Source: Lachnospiraceae bacterium (GTDB taxonomy: Bacteria; Bacillota; Clostridia; Lachnospirales; Lachnospiraceae). Taken from it: a stretch of 64,000 nt of DNA. The stretch covers positions 1 through 64,000 of the forward strand of contig JAGBBV010000013.1 of assembly GCA_017938315.1 (NCBI GenBank), given 5' to 3'. Positions within the stretch are counted from its first letter, which is position 1. The number at the start of each line of letters is the position of its first letter. The notes beneath the pieces are model-generated. The model searched no databases. It had not been told where the DNA came from and was given only the letters and a program-made list of their open reading frames with translations. Positions 48,744-64,000 of this stretch are shown one piece after another. A program made the translations under genes and the position numbers.

Positions 48744-48770
48744 TTGACTTTTTGTCGACGCGATTATAAA
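48744..48770 (+). promoter_or_regulatory. Promoter of the c-di-GMP riboswitch and rotary-ATPase/surface operon
   Basis: TTGACT and TATAAA are 15 bp apart (16 bp if the -35 is read as CTTGAC), in the 285-bp gap after pyrF. Transcription would start near 48778, about 25 bases before the riboswitch aptamer. Confidence 0.62.
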
Positions 48771-48802
48771 CTGGAATAAGGCTTGATTTAGAAAACGTTT
48801 AA

Positions 48803-48880
48803 TATTGTCGTTGGCAAACACTCAGTGATGGGTGGGCGCAAAGCATGAAGTCATATTCTTATGATGGTTCGGCTGCACAA
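48803..48880 (+). promoter_or_regulatory. c-di-GMP-I (GEMM) riboswitch aptamer candidate
   Basis: The RNA contains the two conserved GEMM blocks, TTGGCAAACAC and GGGCGCAAAGCATG. They are separated by a 5-bp stem (CACTC with GGGTG) with a six-base loop. The second helical arm is GTCATA/TATGAT with a TTCT loop, followed by GGTTCGGCTGC. TTGT and ACAA close the base. These are the GCAAA and CGCAAAGC motifs and the two-hairpin layout of class I c-di-GMP sensors. The 3' part GGCTGCA (48871-48877) can also pair with TGCAGCC (48910-48916), followed by ATTTT, so an expression platform is visible. Whether it is an ON or OFF switch cannot be told. It is the only feature in the leader of the large operon. 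Confidence 0.83.
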
Positions 48881-48952
48881 ATTATTATTTACTTGTAGGT
48901 AGTAGTTTTTGCAGCCATTTTAATTTACAAAAAAGATACGAGGAGCAAAGCT

Positions 48953-62192: not shown

Positions 62193-62721
62193 ACAGCTGA
62201 TATTGCTGAAATCAACAGTGATTATAGCAGCAGTAGGTACTGTTATCATTGCATTTATGCTTTGGTTATGTTGTCGCAAATTTAAGTGGACAGGGAAAAC
62301 AACCAGGATCATTGGCTTCTTTTATGACGCCACCATGTTAGATTCTGTTACCCTTGCCATTTGTATGCTGAAATTTTTCCTTGTTATTTCTCTTTTCTTT
62401 AACAAGGGAAGAATTGAACTAATCCATATCCTGTTTTTCGGAGTGTTGGTTTTGGCGTACAATATTTGCCGCCGGAAAATAAAAGAAGTATTCGTTAGTT
62501 TATTTAACGGAGTGGTTATTATGGGCGTATTGTATGTGGCAAACTTTTTGCTTTCCTACTTAAGGGAAATCTTATTTGATAAAAAAATCGCCGTAGCGCT
62601 GGTGTTTTTGTCTATTTTCCTGTTGCTATATACCCTTTACGATATTGCAAGCTGTGTGCTCAGCATCGTAAGTGACAAGCGGCCTATAGAACCGAAAGAT
62701 GCTAAAGGAGAGACTGCATGA
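62176..62721 (+). CDS. Five-helix membrane protein of the rotary-ATPase operon
   Basis: 181 residues with five predicted helices (about 8-32, 41-70, 77-97, 108-130, 140-165). Helix 2 contains charged residues (FFYDATMLDSVTLAICMLKF), unusual in a membrane. There is no sign of subunit a (no conserved Arg helix LRLFGN). It is nevertheless the only multi-span protein of the operon in this window besides the c-like one, and is a candidate for the stator or output part in contact with the ring. No known family recognised. Start chosen at MDELIKQL after CTGGAG. Confidence 0.7.
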   Translation: MDELIKQLILLKSTVIIAAVGTVIIAFMLWLCCRKFKWTGKTTRIIGFFYDATMLDSVTLAICMLKFFLVISLFFNKGRIELIHILFFGVLVLAYNICRRKIKEVFVSLFNGVVIMGVLYVANFLLSYLREILFDKKIAVALVFLSIFLLLYTLYDIASCVLSIVSDKRPIEPKDAKGETA

Positions 62722-63443
62722 GAAGACGCAGAAAACCAATGAAAGCCATCACCATGTTACAGATTGGTATGGCAGGTGTTTTATTGATATGCTTAGTACT
62801 GCTGATGGTATGGTATACAGACGGACTTACCAGTTTTAAACCCAATGCAGGCACGTATCAATATGTAGCCGGATTAAAAATCGATTATAAGGATAATGCT
62901 GTTTACCGCAGTAAAGACGGAAAAGTAGAGGTTTCCGACAAGGAAACGTCCGGTGAAACTGCAGGCGCCCCTATTTTGTATGAAGGGGAAAGGAAAATTA
63001 CATTATCAAACAATATGCTTTTGATGGTGCCAAAGCAGGGGACCGCACTTAAGAAGGTGAACTGTTTTACTACCATTACGGAAAGAGATGGTCTCAGTAC
63101 CCTTACCCTGGATAAGAAAAAAGCACAGGTATTTGGCGGTTTCCTTTATGATGGGGAGGATACCTATATTTTCTTAGAGAAAACTACCTTGGCAATCGGG
63201 GCAAAGACTGTGGAACTGGATCCTCTTTCTTATGCCACTGTCAACTATCAGCAGCATGTGGAATATCACAACAGTGCTGATAACAAACATGAACTAATTG
63301 CCCTTGCCAACACGGATGTTACCGCTAAGGCAGAGAGCGGCTATGTGATTGATTTGGGAAAAGATACCATTGAAATGGGACAGGGTGAAGCAATTCTTTA
63401 CTCGGCAGTAGAGACTGTAGCAAATATTGATATGGAGAAATAA
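62718..63443 (+). CDS. Membrane-anchored extracytoplasmic protein of the rotary-ATPase operon
   Basis: 241 residues. A very basic start (MRRRRKPMK) and one helix (about 14-31) anchor a beta-rich outer domain. YIFLEKTTLAIGAKTVELDP and SYATVNYQQHVEYH resemble TDYMIVSPEVTLKLSASQEI and YAQIKYVDSGIVRI of the giant protein in spacing and hydrophobic pattern. No known domain is recognised. AAAGGAGAG precedes the ATG, which overlaps the previous stop (ATGA). A structural part of the outer assembly is inferred. Confidence 0.72.
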   Translation: MRRRRKPMKAITMLQIGMAGVLLICLVLLMVWYTDGLTSFKPNAGTYQYVAGLKIDYKDNAVYRSKDGKVEVSDKETSGETAGAPILYEGERKITLSNNMLLMVPKQGTALKKVNCFTTITERDGLSTLTLDKKKAQVFGGFLYDGEDTYIFLEKTTLAIGAKTVELDPLSYATVNYQQHVEYHNSADNKHELIALANTDVTAKAESGYVIDLGKDTIEMGQGEAILYSAVETVANIDMEK

Positions 63444-63446
63444 TTC

Positions 63447-64000
63447 ATGAAAAAAATTTGGTTGGGTATTGGTGCGATTGTCATCATTATTCTGTTATTA
63501 CTGCAAACAAGATTTACAGAATTCTTAAGACTGGACAATAGTGGATATGCTGTGGAAACCGGTAAGGTGAAGCAGCTTCTTTTAGCTGACCCTAATGAAG
63601 AAGAATTTGTGGGAGAAGATGTTCCCCTTACAGCCTTCGAAGCTTTGGAATATGTGTATCAGCGTGGTAATTCCTATTATTTAGGCGAAAAGAAAAAGAC
63701 AGAAATTGACATGGATTTCCCTATGTTAATCAGCGACGGTGCAGGTGTAATGTTCACAGACAATGAAAGCATCTTATTTGACGTGGAATTTGAGGAATAT
63801 GAAACCTACCGCGGATTAATGATGAGTGATAAGGTGGCATACAACCCCGGCGGAGAAAGAGCCGATGCCAATGAATACTTATTTGCACAGATGTCCAACG
63901 GTTTATACACCAACTTAACCCCCATGACCTTTGAAGATAATGGGGAACTTAGAGAAGTGACCATGAACAGTTTTATCTGTTTTAGGGAAAATTACTTCAC
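63447..64000 (+). CDS. Membrane-anchored protein of the rotary-ATPase operon (cut by window edge)
   Basis: The first 184 residues of a protein that continues beyond the window. MKKIWLGIGAIVIIILLLLQ is an N-terminal anchor helix. The outer part includes YYLGEKKKTEIDMD and MFTDNESILFDVEFEEYETY, a layout similar to the beta domains of its three neighbours. It starts 3 bp after the previous stop, so the operon goes on. No family recognised. Confidence 0.75.
   Translation, partial: MKKIWLGIGAIVIIILLLLQTRFTEFLRLDNSGYAVETGKVKQLLLADPNEEEFVGEDVPLTAFEALEYVYQRGNSYYLGEKKKTEIDMDFPMLISDGAGVMFTDNESILFDVEFEEYETYRGLMMSDKVAYNPGGERADANEYLFAQMSNGLYTNLTPMTFEDNGELREVTMNSFICFRENYF

Follow-up and report, generated by a model that had tools for sequence, protein, structure and literature searches.

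The 64,000-nucleotide stretch of DNA analysed here, the window (positions 1 to 64,000 of contig JAGBBV010000013.1, assembly GCA_017938315.1, from a Lachnospiraceae bacterium), ends inside an operon in which homologues of the rotary F-type ATPase are encoded together with large surface proteins, and in which the c subunit has no ion-binding carboxylate. Eleven co-directional genes on the + strand, 3′ of a cyclic di-GMP-I (c-di-GMP-I) riboswitch, follow one another as surf1-surf2-c-bδ-α-γ-β-ε-tm5-surf3-surf4 (Table 1; surf1 to surf4 and tm5 are labels coined in this analysis), on contig C7 of a host genome of 2.63 Mb that is 97% complete. The genes named in an earlier note on this DNA are all present in that order, as judged from the open reading frame list and Pfam: a 2229-residue surface protein and a Gly-Gly-X (GGX) protein, here surf1 and surf2; c, b-delta, α, γ, β and ε homologues in atp order, with ε lacking a Pfam match; a membrane protein described as having five helices, which is tm5, with five hydrophobic stretches judged by eye; and at least two anchored outer proteins behind it, surf3 and surf4, each with an N-terminal hydrophobic helix. 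The many short overlaps that the note reported were also seen, at 4 to 23 bp for most of the listed junctions: 17 bp for bδ/α if α begins at the ATG at 58393, 4 bp for α/γ, 23 bp for β/ε, 17 or 44 bp for ε/tm5 depending on the start codon, and 4 bp for tm5/surf3.

Table 1. Features of the operon and its 5′ side (positions in the window).
Feature	Position	Strand	Description	Basis
pyrF-like gene	47735..48667		5′ of aptamer	named from translation
c-di-GMP-I riboswitch aptamer	48803..48880	+	72 nt before surf1 start	Rfam RF01051, 45.8 bits
terminator-like hairpin	48871..48916	+	shares GGCUGC with aptamer 3′ side	-22.7 kcal/mol
surf1, 2229 aa	48953..55642	+	N-terminal hydrophobic helix, membrane-proximal domain, collagen-like Gly-X-X run	
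surf2, 541 aa	55663..57288	+	N-terminal hydrophobic helix, related membrane-proximal domain, 26 GGX triplets	
c-like proteolipid, 81 aa	57315..57560	+	without ion-binding carboxylate	PF00137 4.2e-8; alignments
bδ-like, apparently fused stator, 273 aa	57588..58409	+	hydrophobic helix and coil, then delta/OSCP-like domains	AlphaFold2, Foldseek
alpha-like subunit, 441 aa	58393..59718	+	N-terminal stretch and Arg finger kept	PF00006 4.2e-70
gamma-like subunit, 263 aa	59715..60506	+		PF00231 1.7e-25; alignment A1
beta-like catalytic subunit, 458 aa	60521..61897	+	GGAGVGKT and GERSREG intact	PF00006 6.7e-66
epsilon-like protein, 105 aa	61875..62192	+		place and size only
tm5, multi-helix membrane protein, 181-aa frame	62176..62721	+	conserved Arg/Lys inside hydrophobic stretch	
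surf3, 241 aa	62718..63443	+	one hydrophobic helix and membrane-proximal beta-rich domain	
surf4, start of 3709-aa protein	63447..64000	+	reaches C7:74576 beyond window; hydrophobic helix at both ends	

The gene set recurs, and its association exceeds chance. A scan of a genome collection with an alignment of γ gave 137 relatives, from which 80 loci were kept (not 80 genomes, since three come from the metagenome-assembled genome [MAG] JAEEIH01 and two from MAG JAISAA01; most of the sources are MAGs). Within the limits of their flanks, these loci carry the set; L101 and L102 have a changed arrangement, and no c is visible in either. Where the flank suffices, the ATPase genes are present at nearly every locus (bδ 74/74, β 78/78, ε 75/75, α 75/76, c 68/70), as are tm5 (74/74), surf3 (70/72), surf2 (62/67) and surf4 (58/63), with surf1 at 34/60 on a profile that needs the surf1 start, which often lies at or past the 10-kb flank. 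The single α counted as missing, in L056, reflects an over-long γ frame that disturbed the counting, and that locus does have an α frame. The earlier note had staked its reading on conserved linkage of its β homologue with the surface genes, and this linkage is kept over the 80 loci. It persists even in the rearranged L101 (7036-13234 onward), where the ATPase genes come first, just 3′ of a resolvase-like recombinase gene, and are followed by surf1 and a GGX-bearing surf2.

The loci are mostly from Clostridia, with others from Bacilli, Coriobacteriales and Bifidobacterium. As labelled, the carriers are Lachnospiraceae, including the isolate Kineothrix alysoides (L025, L118 and L119), Oscillospiraceae, Family XIII, Peptococcaceae, Bacilli, Erysipelotrichaceae, one Mollicutes-labelled MAG, Coriobacteriales and Bifidobacterium colobi, and the labelled sources are ruminants, horses, chickens and others. 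Within any one sample the system is rare: in a search with bδ, 4 of 299 genomes of the family, own included, had the locus (a fifth match, in G292, was spurious), the set was present in 3 of 398 genomes of the phylum, own included, and a sample of Bacilli gave 4 clear carriers among 296, the centre genome included. Three relatives in the family have the same genes, and in one of them, G134, tm5 and surf3 form a single frame with an extra 465-aa protein after it. The one genome of the same genus in the sample, G264, gave no bδ match. This patchy occurrence suggests that the system spreads horizontally, including between phyla. Several copies can occur in one genome bin, as with L040, L043 and L089 in the Lachnospiraceae MAG JAEEIH01 and L057 and L091 in the Oscillospiraceae MAG JAISAA01.

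Subunit c of the set was compared over 73 distinct loci, the window's own and 72 of the 80 (76 nonhousekeeping rows, of which three are duplicate records, plus one housekeeping control row). Both the GxGxGxG glycine motif and the loop GRNPETK are kept in all 73. The ion-binding Glu is gone in all 73: its column reads T in 39, A in 30, S in 3, V in 3 and M in 1 of the 76 rows, against E in the single housekeeping control row. Moreover, the 28 residues after the loop hold no acid in 72 of the 73 loci, the exception being L080, where an Asp lies one position from the site. F-type rings depend on the ion-binding carboxylate of c for coupling to H+ or Na+, and since this is absent, the ring should carry no ions. 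The operon also has no recognizable subunit a: a profile built up from the genome's own housekeeping a matched none of the frames in the system loci, and no match to PF00119, the Pfam model of subunit a, was found on C7 beyond the window edge. As far as sequence can tell, the lost Glu and the missing subunit a together argue strongly against ATP synthesis by the usual mechanism, and the system should be neither an ATP synthase nor an ion pump. The earlier note had said that it was not an ATP synthase, on grounds that did not include the ion site, and the loss of Glu in every relative whose c was seen makes that claim stronger.

The genome has its ATP synthase elsewhere. Contig C4 carries an atp operon of small I-like frames, a, c, b, δ, α, γ, β and ε, the separate operon that the note had asked to have confirmed, and the only PF00119 match in the genome lies inside it. 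Its β is 41% identical to the β of the window, and its α is 93% identical to that of Lachnospiraceae bacterium G11, itself a carrier of the system (L026), which makes a Lachnospiraceae host very probable. FliI-like and Rho-like ATPases, named from sequence, are also encoded in this genome. Hence the outcome that would have undone the note's claim, a genome with no other ATP synthase and a normal subunit a just beyond the window, is not what was found. Across the 50 system genomes, all of them drafts, PF00119 matched somewhere in 28 and had no match in 22; among the small drafts, G327, G333, G332, G342, G344 and G347 have the system, with no housekeeping F-type α at E <= 1e-100 and no PF00119.

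These results bear directly on the plainest alternative, that the genes encode an ordinary F-type ATP synthase or ion pump, the second in the genome, which by chance lies in a surface-protein operon. Such a reading would account for the classical atp order of c, the bδ-like stator, α, γ and β, for the intact catalytic residues, and for a β score of 453.4 that is just under the NCBIfam atpD equivalog cut-off of 462.85 (α is further from that of atpA, at 380.7 against 484.45). It is nevertheless very unlikely, given the sequences: the c Glu is lost throughout, with L080 having its Asp one residue away, the operon is without subunit a in genomes of which 22 of 50 show none at all, the window genome already has a housekeeping operon, and the surface genes are linked to the ATPase genes. 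The opposite notion, that a degenerate and nonfunctional ATPase remnant was captured by a surface operon, would explain why the ion site and subunit a have gone, but is scarcely credible when the catalytic residues are kept, the c sequence is 70 to 80% identical to that of three relatives, and the gene set is maintained across Bacillota and Actinomycetota.

The catalytic residues of α and β are kept in nearly all rows. Over 81 rows, including one housekeeping row, the β Walker A motif GGAGVGKT is kept in 78 and the catalytic Glu motif in 80, and the α Arg finger in 79, with both misses being fragments. The N-terminus of the window α aligns with ATP synthase α from residue 7. In the Bacilli loci L059, L073, L076, L080, L084, L085 and L099, α bears a long acidic C-terminal extension, for a total of 562 to 1090 aa. 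The γ scores 95.4 in hhalign against the genome's own housekeeping γ. For the ε-like protein of the window, the best NCBIfam ε match is at E 0.023, and Pfam gave no ε match for it, nor for any of the 35 members scanned. The bδ of the window has no Pfam match over cut-off either, but its AlphaFold2 model (predicted local distance difference test score [pLDDT] 89.7, predicted template modelling score [pTM] 0.57) retrieves δ-like and OSCP-like rows (OSCP, oligomycin sensitivity-conferring protein) in Foldseek, and a weak OSCP match is present in 6 of 69 bδ members. On this model, b and δ are apparently fused in one chain.

The surface proteins reach about 4300 residues across the system. In the window, surf1 has PF01391 collagen-like repeats (5.5e-13) and an Fn3-like stretch below cut-off, and surf4 has GLUG repeats below cut-off. 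On profile comparison, surf1, surf2 and surf3 have a related membrane-proximal domain after the helix (hhalign probabilities of 93.0 for surf1-surf2, 95.5 for surf1-surf3 and 92.3 for surf2-surf3), with weaker values for surf4 against the same three domains (73.1, 64.6 and 53.7). A collagen-like run follows the domain in 15 of 38 surf1 rows, fragments included, and a GGX run is present in 38 of 65 surf2 rows; glycine runs are mostly missing in the small-genome Clostridia, the Bacilli and Bifidobacterium. The idea that lineages without glycine runs are wall-less was rejected, since the transpeptidase domain PF00905 is present in 50 of 50 genomes, so that absent runs do not imply an absent wall. 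In one of these genomes (G333, that of L073) the transpeptidase match, at C10:127357-127974, lies inside a reported open frame of 25,166 aa, a giant gene or an artefact.

In 12 distinct loci the membrane protein tm5 and surf3 are joined in one chain, and the fused chain of L041, predicted at pLDDT 93.2 and pTM 0.84, gave no Foldseek match at E <= 0.001. An Arg or Lys stands inside a hydrophobic stretch of tm5 in 57 of 62 rows, with Gln in the other 5; in the window it is Lys 66 (62371-62373). This conserved Arg/Lys has no acid in the c protein to pair with.

We put at about 0.6 the probability that the operon encodes a rotary motor of F-type ancestry that is dedicated to burning ATP and directs its torque to the surface proteins, with none of it going to ions. 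The α3β3 head, with its catalytic residues in place, would assemble and hydrolyse ATP; γ would turn and, through the retained GRNPETK loop, carry with it a ring of c subunits, which have also kept their packing glycines; and bδ, with its predicted δ-like fold, would be the stator that holds α3β3 at the membrane, where tm5 may be its partner. Since c has no ion site and the operon lacks subunit a, no ions should pass through, the ring would serve as a mechanical bearing, and the torque would be free for mechanical work on membrane-anchored surface proteins. Motion would pass from the ring to the single membrane helices of surface proteins, most simply those of surf1 or surf2, while tm5-surf3 and the doubly anchored surf4 would form the stationary side. 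The giant surface proteins would thereby be turned or pulled at the expense of ATP, for surface motility, adhesion or fibre handling. The division into a rotor-borne and a stator-borne set is suggested by the gene order (surf1-surf2 before c, and tm5-surf3-surf4 after ε), by the tm5-surf3 fusions and by the related domains; the gene order of L101 does not fit such a split neatly. Whether walled bacteria have here a rotary machine of a new class, one in which α3β3γ on an ion-free c-ring spins or winds giant fibres, with a surf1 or surf2 helix on the ring and tm5-surf3-surf4 stationary, is in our judgement an even bet.

An operon that encodes both an ATPase and giant surface proteins could also be read as an export or assembly machine, in which the ATPase powers secretion or polymerisation of those proteins and the c-ring provides a platform or a gated pore. 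Export systems do use related hexamers, those of the FliI/SctN type, although the NCBIfam matches to them are far below cut-offs. However, all four surface proteins of the window start with a hydrophobic helix suitable for insertion by Sec, none of the genes in the operon was recognised as encoding an export gate, and the c hairpin retains its ring-packing glycines; export is in our view improbable.

The earlier note had called the operon c-di-GMP-controlled; such control is probable in the present genome, but the switch was not found at the locus in the relatives examined. The aptamer passes the Rfam RF01051 gathering score (45.8 against 35 bits), and a home-made model, R1, gives it 58.8 bits, although the window sequence was in the building set of R1. 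The hairpin that follows has a folding energy at z -6.45, with 0 of 200 shuffles as low; its tail, AUUUUAAUU, is a weak U-run, and a pattern scan did not list it. Since one strand of the hairpin, GGCUGC, also belongs to the 3′ side of the aptamer, ligand binding should hinder the hairpin, and c-di-GMP thus probably switches the operon ON in this genome. Among relatives, RF01051 matched 18 times in 10 of the 50 system genomes (under stricter filters, by which weak matches are lost), and of the 15 matches examined, none is on a contig that matches the contig of the system locus in length, except one in Kineothrix, some 0.54 Mb from the operon, whose upstream region gave no riboswitch match. R1, run over 42 sources of which about 22 reach upstream of surf1, found only the window and a chance-level match in L067 (E 0.96). 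Control by c-di-GMP as a conserved trait was rejected on this evidence, and because the aptamer was not found at the loci of the relatives examined, the riboswitch is not part of the system definition. On the other side of the operon, an XRE-like and a Fic-like gene (L008:14682-15794 on C7, just beyond the window) and a pyrE-like gene, all named from translations, lie 3′ of surf4. The whole island is flanked by the pyrF-like gene and by the pyrE-like gene, as if it had been inserted between the two.

No description of this gene set was found in the literature searched. We know of no c-ring described so far that works without ions, and to our knowledge this would be the first; in a stricter view, it could be a new type of rotary ATPase. 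If it does rotate, surface structures would here be driven by a rotary motor that runs on ATP and has no relation to flagella, pili or the known motors of gliding, and it bears on how F-type motors become freed from ions. With the housekeeping F1Fo enzyme it has in common the order c-b/δ-α-γ-β-ε, the catalytic residues, the rotor loop of c and a β just short of atpD, but it lacks subunit a and the c carboxylate, its b and δ are apparently fused, and surface genes and tm5 lie in the operon. The b-δ fusion of mycobacteria is likewise one chain with a membrane helix, a coil and δ-like domains, and mycobacterial chains are among the Foldseek rows for bδ; it is, however, 427 to 445 aa long against 273 here, where the chain should not be part of an ATP synthase. 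The N-ATPase, too, is encoded by an additional F-type operon beside the one that its host genomes already contain, but possesses subunit a and an ion-binding c, and its cut-offs are far from reached (β 406.6 against 752 for TIGR03305, α 348.2 against 750.5 for TIGR03324). A precedent for helices inside a c-ring exists in the V-ATPase, where single helices of proteins with outer domains sit in the ring lumen, but this is a different ATPase class and its ring carries ions.

The nearest functional parallel is with the F1-like X0 ATPases of Mycoplasma, of which Type 2 serves gliding and Type 3 the MIB-MIP system, according to the parts of the published accounts drawn on here (PMC3369863, PMC12994834). 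Both those clusters and the present operon encode F1-type α, β and γ with surface proteins, and the Mycoplasma machines are thought to spend ATP on surface work. We infer that the system works as they do, with an F1 motor for surface work. As described in these accounts, the seven-gene clusters encode a protein with 12 transmembrane helices, a small one in the cytosol and a large one that ends in two transmembrane helices, but no b, with c and δ not among the seven genes, and their α is described as being without the N-terminal helix. In contrast, the operon here has c and bδ and no 12-helix protein, its α aligns with ATP synthase α almost from the start, and its hosts have transpeptidases. 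The window α is well short of the Type 3 NCBIfam cut-off (302.2 against 520), as are α and β of those for Type 2 gliding (378.4 against 600 and 370.7 against 850). When profiles of the system were run over five Type 3 neighbourhoods, only α and β matched; the failure to match any surface or membrane protein is a partial test, since a frame with 11 to 12 transmembrane helices was seen in only two of the five (L154, L155). An α tree of 72 rows (37 from the system, being the window and 36 of the 80 loci picked for spread; 16 housekeeping; 12 Mycoplasma Type 3, being loci above the NCBIfam cut-off, of a kind found in 14 of 296 genomes; and 7 β as outgroup; no Type 2 rows were included) places the system on one side of a branch with 81/94 support, the housekeeping α on a branch of 100/99 and the Type 3 α on a branch of their own of 100/100, although the order of the three groups is not fixed because long branches meet at the outgroup. 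On these alignments, the α of the system is a clan of its own, apart from housekeeping and Mycoplasma Type 3 α, and with its different membrane parts and its retained c, the system is not a member of the Mycoplasma F1-like family.

The Mycoplasma parallel also raises the possibility that the F1 part, instead of turning fibres continuously, drives a conformational cycle of the surface proteins, as proposed for MIB-MIP, with each ATP-driven stroke opening, resetting or releasing a ligand-holding surface complex that would serve capture, processing, or adhesion and release. The Type 3 ATPase is reported to be required for MIB-MIP function and to co-purify with MIB and MIP under cross-linking (PMC12994834), and the surface proteins here are likewise large and membrane-anchored. 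We consider this reading unlikely, as sustained rotation calls for c and a bδ-like stator, and both are kept here and absent from the Mycoplasma clusters as described in those accounts, and no Pfam protease domain was found in surf1, surf2 or surf4 of the window or in surf1 or surf2 of G019, the only proteins scanned for one. Rotary ATPases are generally treated as ion machines, and the described exceptions that we found are those of the mycoplasmas, whose clusters, as far as the same accounts go, have no c; here, c is strongly conserved with its ion site removed, as part of an 11-gene set with surface proteins.

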